A stretch of DNA of 7,674 bases from Chloroflexota bacterium (lineage in GTDB: Bacteria; Chloroflexota; Dehalococcoidia; Plut-88900), in NCBI GenBank assembly GCA_022572865.1, contig JACZVB010000055.1, forward strand, positions 1 to 7,674, in the 5' to 3' direction. Each line of letters starts with the position of its first letter. The first letter of the stretch is position 1. Both the position numbers and the translations under genes were made by a program. Below are positions 777 through 6,725 of this stretch, piece by piece. The notes below the pieces were generated by a model. The model was not told where the DNA came from. It was given only the letters and a program-made list of their open reading frames with translations, and did no database searches.

Positions 777-827
777 AAGGGCCTTTGGGTCCTGGCCCGC
801 ACCCTTCTATAGGCCGTCACGGCCCTT
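777..827. terminator. Possible shared terminator between convergent genes
   Basis: The short gap between two convergent stop codons holds a GGCCG-TCA-CGGCC hairpin (812-824). A wider inverted repeat, AAGGGCC at 777-783 with GGCCCTT at 821-827, encloses it and touches the stop codon of the minus-strand gene. There is no clear U-tract on either side, so terminator function is inferred mainly from position. Confidence 0.3.
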
Positions 828-2017
828 CAGCGGGATCTGTGGGTATCCAGGTAGTGTCGGACCATGAGGGCTGCCGTGGCCCCTTCCCCTACGGCCGCCG
901 CCACCTGCTTGGTGCTCCCTAGCCGGGCGTCTCCCGCGGCGTACACTCCGGGCACGCTGGTCTCCAGGGTTGCCGAGGTCTTGATATACCCCCATTTGTC
1001 CAGGTCCACTGCGTCCTTCAGGAACGCGGTGTTGGGGACCATGCCGATGAAGATGAACACTCCGGCTGGATGGACCGTCCTTGTCTTGCCACTCTGGCCA
1101 TCCTTCAGCACTACGGATTTTAGACGGTGGTTTCCCTTGAACTCCTGTACCGAGGTGCCGGTAAACACCTCTATCTTGGGGTCTGAATACGCCCGGTCCT
1201 GGAGGATGCGGCTGGCCCCCAGCTTCTCGGAGATCTCCACTATGGTCACCTTGCTAGCGAATTTGGTCAGGAAGATGCCCTCCTGAAGACCGCTGTCACC
1301 TCCTCCCACCACCAGTAGCTCCTGGTCCTGGTAGAAGGGGCCGTCGCAGGTGGCGCAGAAGTGGACACCCGACCCTATGAAGGCCTCCTCGCCCGGGACA
1401 CCGAGCCTCCTGTAGGTAGCCCCGGGGCACAGGATCAGGGCCCGAGCGCAATACTCGTCTCCCAGGGATGTAGTCACCATCTTGTAGCCGTTCTGGGTTG
1501 TGACCGATTGGACCTCCTGCGCCACCAGGGCCTCAGCCCCGAATCGCTTGGCCTGTTTGTCCAGGCGGTCGGCGAGCTCCGGCCCCCCGATGCCCTCGGG
1601 GAAGGCTGGGAAATTATCCAGCTTGTCCGTGATCCCTGCCTGTCCCCCCAGGGCTGCGCGGTCGATGACCAGGGTGGAGATATCTTCCCTGGCTGTATAG
1701 ACAGCGGCCATCAGCCCTGCGGGTCCACCCCCAACTATGATCAGATCGTAGAAAGTGCCCTCGGCCCTTATGGTGAGGTCCAGCTTCCCCGCCATCTCCT
1801 GGACGGATGGATTGACGATGAAAGTGCCGTCTGGGAAGAGGACCGTGGGGACGGTGCTTCCCCCCTTCTGAAGCTCCCGTATCTTTTTCTCACCCTCGGG
1901 ATCTTGCTCGATGTCGATGTTCTCGTAGCTGATCCGCTGCTCCCCAAGAAACTTCTTGAGCTGCTTGCAGTAGGGTCACCACACAGCGCTGAAGACTTTA
2001 ATTGCATCCTCTACCAT
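827..2017 (-). CDS. Glutaredoxin/mycoredoxin-thioredoxin reductase fusion, probable selenoprotein (in-frame TGA = Sec14)
   Basis: Read from ATG 2017-2015 to TGA 829-827 this is 396 codons with one internal TGA at 1976-1978. Residues 1-74 form a glutaredoxin/mycoredoxin domain: KVFSAVW-U14-P-Y-C17, then YENIDIEQDPEG, the cis-proline loop TVPTV (P57), and FPDGTFIVNPSVQE. Residues 75-396 are thioredoxin-reductase-like: FAD-binding GGGPAG (96-101), active site CATC (221-224), nucleotide-binding GGGDSG (238-243), and FAD-binding GVYAAGD (357-363). The TGA replaces the first cysteine of the glutaredoxin CPYC motif while the flanking sequence is intact on both sides. The ATG at 2017 has GGGAGG seven bases upstream; the next candidate, ATG 1795, has GGAG directly abutting it, so it is a poor start, and it lies mid-helix in the glutaredoxin C-terminus. 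The HRR NADPH motif is absent (VEISEKLGA instead). Expected role: cytosolic thiol-disulfide reduction with its own redoxin partner. Alternatives: a nonsense mutation or sequencing error, leaving 1795-827 as a stand-alone reductase. Confidence 0.8.
1937..1978 (-). promoter_or_regulatory. Putative bacterial SECIS element after the in-frame UGA
   Basis: On the minus strand the UGA (1978-1976) is followed after 22 bases by an AGUU apical loop (1953-1950). The loop is closed by the 7-bp stem CUCAAGA/UCUUGGG (1960-1954 with 1949-1943, one G-U pair). A lower stem, CUGC (1970-1967) with GCAG (1940-1937), extends it across an asymmetric internal loop. Known bacterial SECIS elements lie just 3' of the UGA inside the coding region, with the apical loop roughly 16-37 bases away and a G in the first loop positions; this hairpin fits. 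Folding was done by eye. Confidence 0.55.
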
Positions 2018-2024
2018 AAATAGT

Positions 2025-2030
2025 CCTCCC
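2025..2030 (-). promoter_or_regulatory. Shine-Dalgarno site that fixes the upstream start of the redox fusion
   Basis: GGGAGG on the minus strand lies seven bases before ATG 2017-2015. It is the best ribosome-binding site near this gene and sits upstream of the in-frame TGA, so translation is set up to enter the glutaredoxin domain. That would make little sense if the TGA were a plain stop after 13 codons. Confidence 0.7.
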
Positions 2031-2193
2031 TTACCTGCAGTTTGGCTCTATTCCCGCTCCTCCGCGGGGGTCTGCTCTATTTTACACGATACACGACATT
2101 GATATCGGAAGGGTTACAGGACTACCTTTCGAATCGATCTATCAGGCCTTGGCCCTGGGGAGAGGAGGGCGGCCCCGAATAGATAATCGGTCT
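2031..2193 (-). other. Leader/intergenic stretch before the redox fusion, with a weak -10 and a small hairpin
   Basis: A TAAAAT sequence on the minus strand (2084-2079) could be a -10 box, but no convincing -35 lies 16-18 bases upstream. A small hairpin, CCCGC-GGAGGA-GCGGG on the minus strand (about 2053-2068), has a purine-rich loop. There is no clear terminator after the permease stop (2194), so read-through from the permease gene 177 bases upstream is possible. Confidence 0.25.
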
Positions 2194-3957
2194 CTACGTT
2201 CCTCTGTTCAGCCTCTTTTGGAAGAACGTCAACCCCACGATGATAAAGATGGCGAAGATGAGGAGCAGGATGGAGACGGCAGCCATCATCGGCGCAAAAT
2301 CAACCGTGACCCCGTTCCACAGGTTTATGGGCAGGGTCCTGAGATACGGGTCCTTCAGGAATATGGAGACCACGACTTCATAGAAAGAGATCAGGAATGC
2401 GAAGAAGGCGGCGACCACTATCCCTGGGATTACCTGCGGAAGAACGATCTTTCGTAAGACCGTAACCCGGCCTGCCCCAAGGCTCATTGCGGCCTGCTCG
2501 TGGACCTCGTCCACACTGCGCATGGTGGCGGCCAAGATGATCACGACGAACGGCAGGGCCAGGACAGTGTGGGGCAATGCGATGCCTAGAACTGTGCCTA
2601 TGAGAACCCTCATGTTGAGGGAATAGAAGTAAAAGAGGGCGAGAGCAGTCAACGTCGAGGGAACGATGAGGGGAAGGATTAAGAAGGAGCTCAACAACCC
2701 CTTGCCCGGGAACCGTCCCCGCACAAGGCCATAGGCCACCAGCCCTCCCAGAGGCACGGCCAGGGCTACCACGATGAAGGCGATCTCCAGGCTGGTAATG
2801 GTGGACTCGATCCAGTCTACCGGGCTCAGGGGACTGGTGGTGAAGAAGTTCTTGATCCACTTCAGGCTGTATTCCTTGGGTGGGAATATTATGAAGTTCG
2901 ATTTGTTCACCGATAGAGGAATCACGATGAGGCTCGGCAGTATCATAAAAAAGGAGACCAGGCCGACGACTACGGACAGAGGGATCCTCCGGGGCGGCTG
3001 TTTCACCACCTCTATAGGTGAAGAGCGCATGAGGGCCTCGCCGGCGCTGTAGATAGCGCCGAAGCCCACCAAACGGGAGAAGACCAGATATATCACTACG
3101 ATGGCCGCCAGCAGGAGCATGGCCAGGGCCGCGGTGAAGTTACTTGTGCCCCCCGCCAGGGCAGTCGCTATCCCCCTTTCCCTAATGCCTCCTACGACGA
3201 ACGGGGCGATGAAGTGACCGGCACTCAAGATAAAGACCAGCACAGAACCGGCCCAGAGGCCCGGCATACTCAGGGGCAGGAATATGCGTCGAAAGCTCTG
3301 GAACGGGGTTGCACCCAGGCTCTCGGCCACCGCAGGCATGCTCCTGGGAATCCCTCGCATCACGGCGAAGAGAGGCAGGACCATGAAAGGGAGGAAGGTA
3401 TGAAGCATCGACACATTGACCGGGAACCGGTTGAACATCAGCTCCAGGGGCTCGTCTACAAACCATAAGAGCTGCAACGCATCATTCACTGGGCCTGTTC
3501 TACCCAGGGTGACCCTCCAGGAGAAGATGCTGGCAATCGTGCTGGTTACAAATGGGAGGATGACTAAGATCAGCACCAGCGCCCTCCAGCGGCCGGCCCG
3601 GGTCGCCAGGTAATAGGCCACCGGATAGCCCAGTAGGATGCATCCCAGGGTAGTTACCCCGGCCAGCTCGAAGGTGGTGCGGAACATCCTGCGGGTGAAT
3701 TCATTGGTCAAAGCCCTCTCGTAAAGCCGTGTGGTGAATTCATCCCCACCAAAGCTGGCATCAACCATTCGGACCATGGGAATTACGAAGAAGAGTATGA
3801 GAAGCATTACTGCGGGCGCAGCGAGGAGAATGTAAAAGCCCTCGTGCTTTGCCCGCACGTAAAAGAGCCGTCTCTGTTCTATGTTGTTAACCAGCCGGAT
3901 GCTGGCAAGGGCCCGCTGGGCCGAGTCGATCCCAATCAACAGCTCATATCCATTCAA
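2194..3957 (-). CDS. ABC transporter permease, PotB-PotC-type fusion (two membrane domains in one chain)
   Basis: The 587-residue frame is about twice a normal permease and holds two complete membrane domains. The first spans about residues 40-300, with a leading TM segment at 40-62 and an EAA loop near 207-236 (VAESLGA, then IFLPLSMPG). The second spans about 327-580, with a leading TM at 327-349 and an EAA loop near 484-512 (EQAAMSLGA, then IVLPQVIPG). The paired EAA loops are the coupling helices that contact the cytoplasmic ATPase. Layout and motifs match spermidine/putrescine and Fe3+-type permeases (PotB/PotC, FbpB). It should form the channel used by the binding lipoprotein at 5310-6725. 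Start is uncertain: the most upstream option is TTG 3957, with no Shine-Dalgarno and lying in the U-tract of a terminator-like hairpin. GTG 3858 (residue 34), just before the first TM segment and behind AGAGACGG, is a good alternative. No ATPase gene is in the window. The substrate is inferred from family only. Confidence 0.9.
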   Translation of the reverse strand: MNGYELLIGIDSAQRALASIRLVNNIEQRRLFYVRAKHEGFYILLAAPAVMLLILFFVIPMVRMVDASFGGDEFTTRLYERALTNEFTRRMFRTTFELAGVTTLGCILLGYPVAYYLATRAGRWRALVLILVILPFVTSTIASIFSWRVTLGRTGPVNDALQLLWFVDEPLELMFNRFPVNVSMLHTFLPFMVLPLFAVMRGIPRSMPAVAESLGATPFQSFRRIFLPLSMPGLWAGSVLVFILSAGHFIAPFVVGGIRERGIATALAGGTSNFTAALAMLLLAAIVVIYLVFSRLVGFGAIYSAGEALMRSSPIEVVKQPPRRIPLSVVVGLVSFFMILPSLIVIPLSVNKSNFIIFPPKEYSLKWIKNFFTTSPLSPVDWIESTITSLEIAFIVVALAVPLGGLVAYGLVRGRFPGKGLLSSFLILPLIVPSTLTALALFYFYSLNMRVLIGTVLGIALPHTVLALPFVVIILAATMRSVDEVHEQAAMSLGAGRVTVLRKIVLPQVIPGIVVAAFFAFLISFYEVVVSIFLKDPYLRTLPINLWNGVTVDFAPMMAAVSILLLIFAIFIIVGLTFFQKRLNRGT

Positions 3958-4359: not shown

Positions 4360-4833
4360 TTAAGGAACCTGGGGCTCGACCTGGGGAAGTTGTTCCTGCG
4401 TCTCCGCTTCTCCAACGGCCTCAAGGGCGAAGAGAGCGGTGCATCCGACTTCCCCAGTCGATGTGATGTACACACCCTCGCCCTCGTCACACTCGATCTT
4501 GAACCCGGGCCCGCCATCCAGGGACAGGGGCTCGGGCTCGCCTTCTACTTCGGTCCCTGGTGCGAGCGGCGTGGACCCGAGGATGGGAGCGCCTCTTAGG
4601 GCCTTGAGGTCATCTTCGTCGCATGCGTCGATGTTGTGAACCAGGTTGCACTCGTTGGGGTCGATATCCTCGTCCGAGCGTATGGGGCCCTGCCCTCCCT
4701 GAGTTTCATCCGTGATTCTCTGTGAGTCCAACTCAGGGGGGTTGTCACCACTGTCGGTTAGGGCAAATGCCGTTCCGGCGCCAATGCCGACTACCAGGGC
4801 CAGGCCAACTAAGATAATCACCCATTTAGCCAT
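4360..4833 (-). CDS. Small acidic exported or membrane-anchored protein of unknown function
   Basis: I do not recognise a family in these 157 residues. The start at ATG 4833 is well supported: AGGAGG lies eight bases upstream (4847-4842), with a near-consensus promoter further back. Residues 1-3 (MAK) precede one hydrophobic segment (about 4-24) ending AFA-L, which could be a signal peptide cut after A24 or a single N-terminal anchor. The rest is strongly acidic and Pro/Gly-rich, with four cysteines (C62, C71, C115, C131) that could form two disulfides outside the membrane. It has a segment DPNECNLVHNIDACDEDD around residues 58-75, and the last 20 residues are a low-complexity E/Q/P/V tail. 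It lies between the binding-protein and permease genes of the transporter but carries its own promoter and 3' hairpin, so a link to transport is only positional. Confidence 0.75.
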   Translation of the reverse strand: MAKWVIILVGLALVVGIGAGTAFALTDSGDNPPELDSQRITDETQGGQGPIRSDEDIDPNECNLVHNIDACDEDDLKALRGAPILGSTPLAPGTEVEGEPEPLSLDGGPGFKIECDEGEGVYITSTGEVGCTALFALEAVGEAETQEQLPQVEPQVP

Positions 4834-5309: not shown

Positions 5310-6725
5310 TTACTGGGCAGTGAGGTCTACCCACCGCTCGAACTGGACGTCGTATGTGTCTCCGCTGTAGATCTCGTCTTCCAGGATGGCGAAGCCGATG
5401 TTGGCCGCCGAGGAGGGAAGCTGGTCCCTAACTTCGTCGTACGCTGCGTCGTCCAGGAAGGGCAGAGACTCTATGTTGACGGGCCCGTAGGTTATGAACA
5501 GGCTTATCCTGGCGTTGATCTCCGGGAAGGAGGTCCAGGCTATGAAGAGCTCGGCCAGCTCATATTTATTGAGGTCGTCATCCTTCAGCCCCTTGACGAT
5601 GATCCAGGAATCGGTGGAGAGCAGGTGGCCACATGTCCAGCAGATCTTGAGGGGCGCGCCCTCCTGTTGGGCGTCGAAGATTCTCCCGTTCCAGGCGGTG
5701 CACATGTCCACCTCGCCGCTGATGAGGAACTGGGGACAGTCTGAGCCCGTTTGCCAGAGCACGCTATTCTCGTCTGTGTGCTCCGCAAGGAAGGCCCAGG
5801 ACTCTTCTACAGCCTCGTCGGTTAAGGCCGAGAGGGATGCCCTGCCCTCGCGCGTGTCCAGCAGCTCTGGATGCAATGCAAGCTGGGCGAACCTGAGCAT
5901 GTGGTTGTGGTAGTAGGGCCAGGACCGGCGGCCGGGGAACTTGTCGGTGTCGAAGAAGTCCATCATGGTGGTGGGCTGTGGGCCGCCATCGGGGTAGGTC
6001 TCGGTGCTGTAGGCGATGACCGAGGACCATGTGATGCCGCCGCCGCCCGCGTAGGGGGTCAGCTTCAGGACTTCGAAGAAGTTGCGGCGGTCTACGACGG
6101 TTAAGTCCAGCTCCTCCGGCACGTCCTGGAAACCGAAGAAGAAGTCGCCGCCCACATCGGCTACATGCCATGAGACGTTGCCGGTCTCGGCCATGACCCG
6201 TAGCTTGGCGTAGGAGTTGGGGCTGTCCTCAATTATGTCGATTCCGAACTTGTCCTGGAAGGGGATGATGTAGGCCTGCCGCTGGGCCGCCTGATAGGCG
6301 CCGCCCCAGGAAACAAACACGAAGTCTTCACCCCGGTGCTTCTCCAACTCGGCCTCGATCTCTGCCAGGGTGGCGGGGTTGTCCAGCGTCCACTCGGACC
6401 TGTCCCTCAGGCCGGTGGAGGGCGCCGCCGTGGGCGCAGGCGCTGCAGGCACCGCCGTGGGCGCAGGCGCCCCAGGCACCGCCGTAGGTGCAGGCGCTCC
6501 AGGCACCGCCGTGGGTGCAGGCGCTGCCGGTACCACCGTAGGCAGTGGACCCGACGGTATACCGGGTATGGCCGTTGGCGCAGGCACCGCCGTAGCGGGC
6601 CTGGGGGTGGCGTCCTCGCCACATGCGGCCGCTATCAACAGTACCAATACAAGTATGCTAAGCACTCCCAGGAGGGTATATCGCCTGGATATACGCTTCC
6701 GGAGTGTCTTTCTAAGATATTCCAT
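5310..6725 (-). CDS. Extracellular solute-binding lipoprotein of a PotD-like ABC transporter
   Basis: This 471-residue protein starts at ATG 6725 behind AAGGAG (6740-6735, nine-base spacing). A basic N-terminus (residues 5-15) and hydrophobic stretch (17-34) end in the lipobox LIAAAC, with C35 as the lipidated cysteine, so it is anchored outside the membrane. Residues 40-103 are a Pro/Ala/Thr linker built from an APAPTAVPG-type repeat. From about residue 130 the fold is that of family-1 binding proteins for polyamines and related cations: FVFVSWGGAYQAAQRQAYIIPF, then PNSYAKLRVMAETGNVSWHVADV, TPYAGGGGITWSSVIAYS, and a C-terminal SDSWIIVKGL-like strand (TDSWIIVKGL). It should deliver substrate to the fused permease at 2194-3957. 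Cysteines 330, 342, 362 and 365 (CWTC) are unusual for the family and may form disulfides. Spermidine/putrescine specificity is a family guess only. Confidence 0.9.
   Translation of the reverse strand: MEYLRKTLRKRISRRYTLLGVLSILVLVLLIAAACGEDATPRPATAVPAPTAIPGIPSGPLPTVVPAAPAPTAVPGAPAPTAVPGAPAPTAVPAAPAPTAAPSTGLRDRSEWTLDNPATLAEIEAELEKHRGEDFVFVSWGGAYQAAQRQAYIIPFQDKFGIDIIEDSPNSYAKLRVMAETGNVSWHVADVGGDFFFGFQDVPEELDLTVVDRRNFFEVLKLTPYAGGGGITWSSVIAYSTETYPDGGPQPTTMMDFFDTDKFPGRRSWPYYHNHMLRFAQLALHPELLDTREGRASLSALTDEAVEESWAFLAEHTDENSVLWQTGSDCPQFLISGEVDMCTAWNGRIFDAQQEGAPLKICWTCGHLLSTDSWIIVKGLKDDDLNKYELAELFIAWTSFPEINARISLFITYGPVNIESLPFLDDAAYDEVRDQLPSSAANIGFAILEDEIYSGDTYDVQFERWVDLTAQ
6423..6557 (-). repeat. 27-bp tandem repeat encoding the Pro/Ala/Thr lipoprotein linker
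   Basis: Four near-identical 27-base units occupy 6423-6449, 6450-6476, 6477-6503 and 6504-6530; a diverged fifth follows at 6531-6557. Each encodes nine residues of the APAPTAVPG/A type. Since the unit is a multiple of three, copy-number change would lengthen or shorten the linker without shifting the frame. Confidence 0.85.

Follow-up and report, generated by a model that had tools for sequence, protein, structure and literature searches.

A putative selenocysteine-containing glutaredoxin domain fused to an AhpF-like flavoprotein reductase in Chloroflexota

The stretch of Chloroflexota DNA analysed here, referred to as the window (7,674 nucleotides, contig JACZVB010000055.1 of assembly GCA_022572865.1), carries a gene that very probably encodes a selenoprotein. 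The predicted product is an AhpF-like NAD(P)H:disulfide reductase with one N-terminal glutaredoxin domain, in which selenocysteine (Sec) would replace the attacking cysteine. This reading draws support from relatives with truncated gene calls that form a clade, from the SelA, SelB and UGA-containing SelD encoded by the nearest genome, and from the constraint on the codons that follow the TGA. The start codon and a good ribosome-binding site, both preceding the TGA, also back it, as does a confident structure model.

In the mechanism proposed for this enzyme, the UGA at codon 14 would be decoded by SelB and tRNA-Sec, aided by a hairpin located directly downstream. Electrons would pass from NADH to FAD, from FAD to the CATC disulfide (Cys221/224), and from there to a Sec14-Cys17 selenenylsulfide in the redoxin, which would in turn act on a disulfide or some oxidised partner; a peroxiredoxin or a similar protein is the probable substrate.

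Reading frame, start site and constraint

The gene is located on the minus strand, a point on which the initial annotation was silent, and its frame (2017-827) contains the TGA of codon 14 as its only internal stop, in the context AVW-U-PYCK. This TGA had been proposed to fall on the first cysteine of a glutaredoxin CPYC motif, and the translated frame indeed reads WUPYC at this position. The redoxin had also been described as intact on both sides of the TGA, with the frame open into a full reductase, a description confirmed by the single internal stop and by the domains recognized when the protein was searched with Sec written as C. The Pfam model Glutaredoxin (PF00462) matches residues 6-66 with an E value of 2.1e-12 and 47.5 bits, above its gathering cut-off of 22.9, and Pyr_redox_2 matches residues 90-379 (E 1e-47). 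Among the NCBIfam models, TRX_reduct (TIGR01292) covers residues 90-390 with 328.8 bits, just below its equivalog cut-off of 343.45, and AhpF (TIGR03140) covers residues 73-386 with 274.8 bits, far below its cut-off of 502.9. The mycoredoxin model GlrX_actino (TIGR02200; residues 6-79, 73.0 bits, cut-off 89.5) and Uxx-star (NF041212; 42.1 bits, cut-off 66) also score below their cut-offs. The predicted structure of the whole fusion protein is confident, with a mean pLDDT of 90.7.

Table 1. Features of the fusion gene in the window.
Feature	Position	Strand	Details or basis
Glutaredoxin-flavoprotein fusion gene	827..2017	-	396 codons/residues; stop TGA at 827-829
In-frame TGA, codon 14, predicted Sec of UPYC active site	1976..1978	-	Translated frame
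Resolving Cys17 of UxxC	1967..1969	-	Translated frame
Glutaredoxin/mycoredoxin-like domain, residues 6-79	1781..2002	-	Pfam, NCBIfam, structure model
Low-molecular-weight TrxR/AhpF-like flavoprotein domain, residues 90-390	848..1750	-	Pfam, NCBIfam, PDB matches, structure comparison
CATC redox disulfide, residues 221-224	1346..1357	-	Invariant in 15-row alignment A1
Shine-Dalgarno sequence AGGGAGGA	2024..2031	-	6 nt upstream of ATG 2017
bSECIS-like hairpin directly 3' of TGA	1934..1970	-	Upper stem 1943-1960; modest evidence only

The claim that the sole good ribosome-binding site lies 5' of the TGA also stands, since AGGGAGGA is found 6 nt from the ATG at 2017. The position of the start is important for a rival reading in which the N-terminus has decayed, so that translation really ends at the TGA and the sole product is a 322-residue reductase started at ATG 75. 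This codon is the only ATG, GTG or TTG between codons 15 and 80, the gene call of the relative P0002 starts exactly there, and redoxin and reductase are separate neighbouring genes in some relatives, such as locus L031. However, the AGGAG of ATG 75 abuts this start with zero spacing, to be compared with the 6 nt that separate AGGGAGGA from codon 1, and the window's TGA falls on the catalytic cysteine, whereas the stops of L031 lie at the domain border. Apart from codon 14, the gene has 395 codons in which a total of 118 single-base changes would create a stop, 28 of them within the first 75 codons, and a random nonsense change would strike the catalytic cysteine in about 1 case in 119 (all changes weighted alike).

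Decay is also opposed by the state of the redoxin itself, which is intact, free of frameshifts and extra stops in the window as well as in codons 24-75 of the nearest genome, and constrained like the reductase. Compared with the Cys orthologue of genome G095, codons 15-75 give a pN of 0.211 and a pS of 0.640, and codons 76-396 give 0.197 and 0.591, with no internal gap in either part; these values add up both branches, one of which is the Cys lineage. By this measure, the redoxin codons located 3' of the TGA appear to be under a constraint equal to that of the reductase. Between the window and the nearest genome, codons 24-75 differ at four positions in 52 codons (two silent, two not), too few for a test, and the dN/dS of this segment was set aside as proof for that reason; the value for the remainder of the gene is 0.20. 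Taken together, a decayed N-terminus is unlikely.

Relatives of the fusion and distribution of the TGA

The protein search returned 7995 matches passing the threshold, of which 120 are listed. Seven of the 120 lack the N-terminal part (P0002, P0005-P0008, P0012 and P0059), including all six listed matches with an identity of at least 75% (P0002, P0005-P0008 and P0012), and these six all begin past codon 14. The first residue of the truncated proteins aligns to residue 18 (P0059), 56 (P0005-P0007), 75 (P0002) or 79 (P0008 and P0012); P0059, which is 65-66% identical to the window protein, is thus called from a position four codons past the TGA site. The search for Cys-type homologues fused in the same way, recommended by the initial annotation, was successful: P0003 and P0004 (69-70% identical) are full length with a cysteine at the site (WCPYC), and others at 50-58% identity occur in many genomes of the class. 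The 111 listed matches with at most 61% identity are full length as well, with 385-415 aa. In an alignment of the window protein with 50 sequences chosen from the 120 listed matches (A3, 51 rows), a cysteine occupies the TGA site in 43 of 43 full-length relatives.

In a tree of these 51 rows, based on the reductase domain alone, the six truncated clusters group with the window in a single clade (support 97/92), adjoined by the truncated P0059 and by the Cys-type P0003 and P0004. If an in-frame stop at codon 14, or close to it, is conserved, standard gene calling can be expected to yield truncated proteins, and the truncated calls of the window's clade suggest, in an indirect manner, that the TGA is conserved across it. 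The same pattern can be used to weigh a sequencing or assembly error, in which a TGC or TGT cysteine codon would have been misread as TGA. The TGA is known from a single contig, but six related clusters, one of which (P0002) comprises 14 member sequences, also start past codon 14, and an error would hardly be expected to strike the one codon where Sec is chemically sensible. An artefact of this kind is very improbable. It is rather likely that this Chloroflexota lineage runs an NADH-driven AhpF-like reductase on selenium, with Sec already in place in the common ancestor of seven or more protein clusters, perhaps earlier, and with Cys regained in P0003 and P0004.

Across 270 loci, 28 frames combine W-(C or stop)-PxC with an in-frame CxxCD reductase site further on. 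The codon at the redoxin site is TGC in 23 of them, TGT in 5 and TGA in none; no locus spans this site in the window's clade. Given the absence of TGA among these 28 sites, Sec is apparently limited, as far as visible, to the window's clade. A second Sec copy was not found among genomes of the class, family, order and phylum (overlapping class draws, the large genome searches scoring only the 4-5 best candidates per genome), nor in a scan of genome contigs covering the best 80 of 214 relatives (top identity 58% among those), nor in the 7 loci of a viral-contig scan (31-38% identical). Some genome-search matches at 39-46% identity contain internal stops (TGA, TAG or TAA), and those with TGA may include another Sec case. 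Around the G095 orthologue, none of the five adjacent ORFs scanned resembles the window's neighbours. At L031:1428-2591, a glutaredoxin-like frame (CPWC) closes in TAA stops directly 5' of a TrxR-like frame; this arrangement is an unfused two-gene form of the redoxin and reductase pair.

Selenocysteine genes in the nearest genome and its class

The nearest genome, G010, is a draft assembly whose roughly 2.4 million bases are spread over 380 or more contigs. Its protein is 94% identical to that of the window, and the DNA is 94.8% identical over 1948 ungapped bases that include the next gene. The contig stops at codon 24, 10 codons short of the TGA, and the missing redoxin piece is absent from the 122 contigs or contig loci of this genome that were searched (798,479 bases). 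With 4 candidates scored, the fusion protein is the sole match at E <=1e-60 in this genome, perhaps because it is the principal enzyme of this type there, perhaps because the draft is incomplete.

The initial annotation called for selA, selB, selC and selD in the same genome, and most of this set was recovered in G010. SelB scores above cut-off, SelA and SelD are present, and SelD contains an in-frame TGA of its own at the catalytic position (U18, AG-U-ASK). The exception is selC: a tRNA-Sec gene was not found in G010 with a covariance model (150 of 353 candidates scored), with BLAST using the G095 gene or with ARAGORN on the 122 contigs. At the level of the class, SelB is above cut-off in 6 of 7 genomes (all except G246), SelA is present in 11 of 13 (not in G141 and G215) and SelD in 12 of 13 (not in G062). 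A tRNA-Sec of at least 65 bits was detected in 11 of 13 genomes, the exceptions being G010 and G215; this threshold was chosen because 5 of 14 control genomes likewise exceeded the gathering score.

The incomplete sets are found in genomes that are possibly incomplete drafts. G141 lacks a SelA match but has a tRNA-Sec and a TGA-containing SelD. A SelD with a TGA is also present in G215, where SelA is missing and no tRNA-Sec reaches 65 bits. G246 has SelA, tRNA-Sec and a TGA-containing SelD with SelB not above cut-off. In three genomes (G062, G079 and G287), a tRNA-Sec gene lies about 140 bases or less from a match limited to the reductase domain, of thioredoxin-reductase-like type (L139:7092-7189, L138:8269-8366 and L137:3180-3276).

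These genomic data are also relevant to the possibility of a changed genetic code, in which UGA would be read as Cys or Trp. Evidence favouring such a change was sought and none was found. In the 122 contigs of G010, TGA terminates 138 of the 449 ORFs of at least 200 aa and is by this count an ordinary stop. Moreover, the terminal TGA of the fusion gene yields the same C-terminus, HRSR, as in P0002, P0005, P0007 and P0008 (YRSR in P0012), and SelA, SelB and SelD are all encoded in G010. A changed code is, on these grounds, extremely improbable. A plain pseudogene, a sequencing error and a changed code were each rejected on the grounds given above.

A Sec codon in bacteria would be expected to be followed by a bSECIS element, and the window presents a candidate hairpin with a 7-bp upper stem, an AGUU loop and 22 nt from the TGA to the loop. 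By the usual bSECIS criteria, the spacing fits and the loop contains a G. The loose consensus is also matched by many controls: 30% of the 2000 synonymous versions, 330 out of 1755 background codons, and 2 of the 12 Cys orthologues that a motif search picked out of 29 loci. The hairpin has a folding energy of -15.4 kcal/mol, compared with a mean of -9.2 for the 2000 synonymous versions, only 0.85% of which fold as well; with dinucleotide shuffles, the z-score is -0.64 and 52 of 200 are at least as stable. The hairpin is compatible with Sec insertion and provides modest evidence; it was set aside as proof because the controls are weak.

Relation to known reductases and selenoproteins

The HRR motif marks NADPH use, and AhpF, which is devoid of it, uses NADH. 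This motif is absent from all 51 rows of alignment A3, and NADH is the likelier donor because the layout is AhpF-like and the motif is missing; the protein is predicted to be an NADH-driven reductase. The core had been named thioredoxin-reductase-like, which remains correct for its nearest sequences, the best PDB matches being TrxR, while the redoxin-first layout and the lack of HRR are those of AhpF. In a structure comparison, which mostly tests residues 84-396 and tells little about the redoxin domain, AhpF chains come first among the re-aligned PDB chains, tied with TrxR chains.

In AhpF, an NADH-dependent peroxiredoxin reductase, a redoxin of thioredoxin fold precedes a TrxR-like flavoprotein of low Mr, as in the fusion protein. 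The N-terminal domain of AhpF is, however, a double thioredoxin fold of about 200 residues, whereas that of the fusion protein is a single redoxin domain of about 80 residues, with the predicted Sec. The fusion protein would work like AhpF, yet judged by its score it is not a member of that family. Low-Mr thioredoxin reductase (TrxB) is the nearest by sequence for residues 90-390 and has the CATC motif in common; the fusion protein differs from it by the extra N-terminal redoxin, the absence of HRR and a score just below the TRX_reduct cut-off. The Cys-type glutaredoxin-TrxR fusions found in Chloroflexota and other organisms have an identical architecture, with WCPYC or WCPDC, and carry Cys in place of Sec. 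Since close fusions of this type (69-70% identical) exist, they offer a natural test of the contribution of selenium.

Animal TrxR and TGR, the latter with an N-terminal glutaredoxin, are high-Mr enzymes of the glutathione-reductase type with Sec near the C-terminus. They are likewise Sec-dependent flavoprotein reductases, but the fusion protein is of the low-Mr TrxR/AhpF type, with its predicted Sec in the N-terminal redoxin. If the Sec reading is true, this enzyme would represent a reductase-redoxin selenoenzyme of an origin separate from animal TrxR/TGR, and its selenium would sit at the other end of the polypeptide. The bacterium seems to put Sec in a redoxin, and the flavoprotein reductase joined to it is of a type different from that of animals.

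Sec glutaredoxins and Cys-only fusions had been said to be known separately, and this agrees with the sources available: Grx (UxxC) is one of the 119 prokaryotic selenoprotein families of a 2026 inventory (PMC13188914), and Cys fusions are found among the protein matches. The inventory family has the UPYC site in common with the fusion protein and is listed under PF00462 alone, whereas here the domain is joined to a flavoprotein. The portions available of PMC13188914 and PMC1794560 also give a UxxC protein of Carboxydothermus and Symbiobacterium (TIGR02187), in which Sec occurs in a homologue of AhpF's N-terminal domain. It is likewise a Sec redoxin tied to the AhpF system, but is given there as matching the N-terminal domain alone, under a different domain model, and a fusion is not mentioned in those portions. 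In the accessible parts of two other reports, a marine survey describes selenoprotein fusions of different kinds (PMC2398784) and Sec is annotated in Chloroflexota formate dehydrogenases (PMC4959059).

No description of a Sec glutaredoxin joined to a flavoprotein turned up in the literature searched, which comprised titles and abstract openings, with few subscription papers and no preprints, and included the available portions of PMC13188914, PMC1794560, PMC2398784, PMC9312934 and PMC4959059. The suggestion that the Sec version is perhaps undescribed holds within this literature, no such fusion being present in the family table of PMC13188914 as far as it was available. The parts are known and were not found combined in print; the combination therefore looks new. 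Genes of this type are recorded as reductases of 318-341 residues devoid of redoxin, and surveys can therefore miss them.

Several neighbouring genes can be recognized in the window. On the minus strand, positions 2194-3957 encode a 587-residue permease whose halves match PotB- and PotC-type models, and positions 5310-6725 encode a solute-binding protein with an Ala-Pro-Thr-Val repeat linker; an ATPase was not found among the window genes scanned. A 157-residue protein with a hydrophobic N-terminus (4360-4833, minus strand) has no Pfam or NCBIfam match at E 0.001. On the plus strand, a gene resembling the C-terminal domain of MetE (2-769) is convergent with the fusion gene, and this order is kept in G010.
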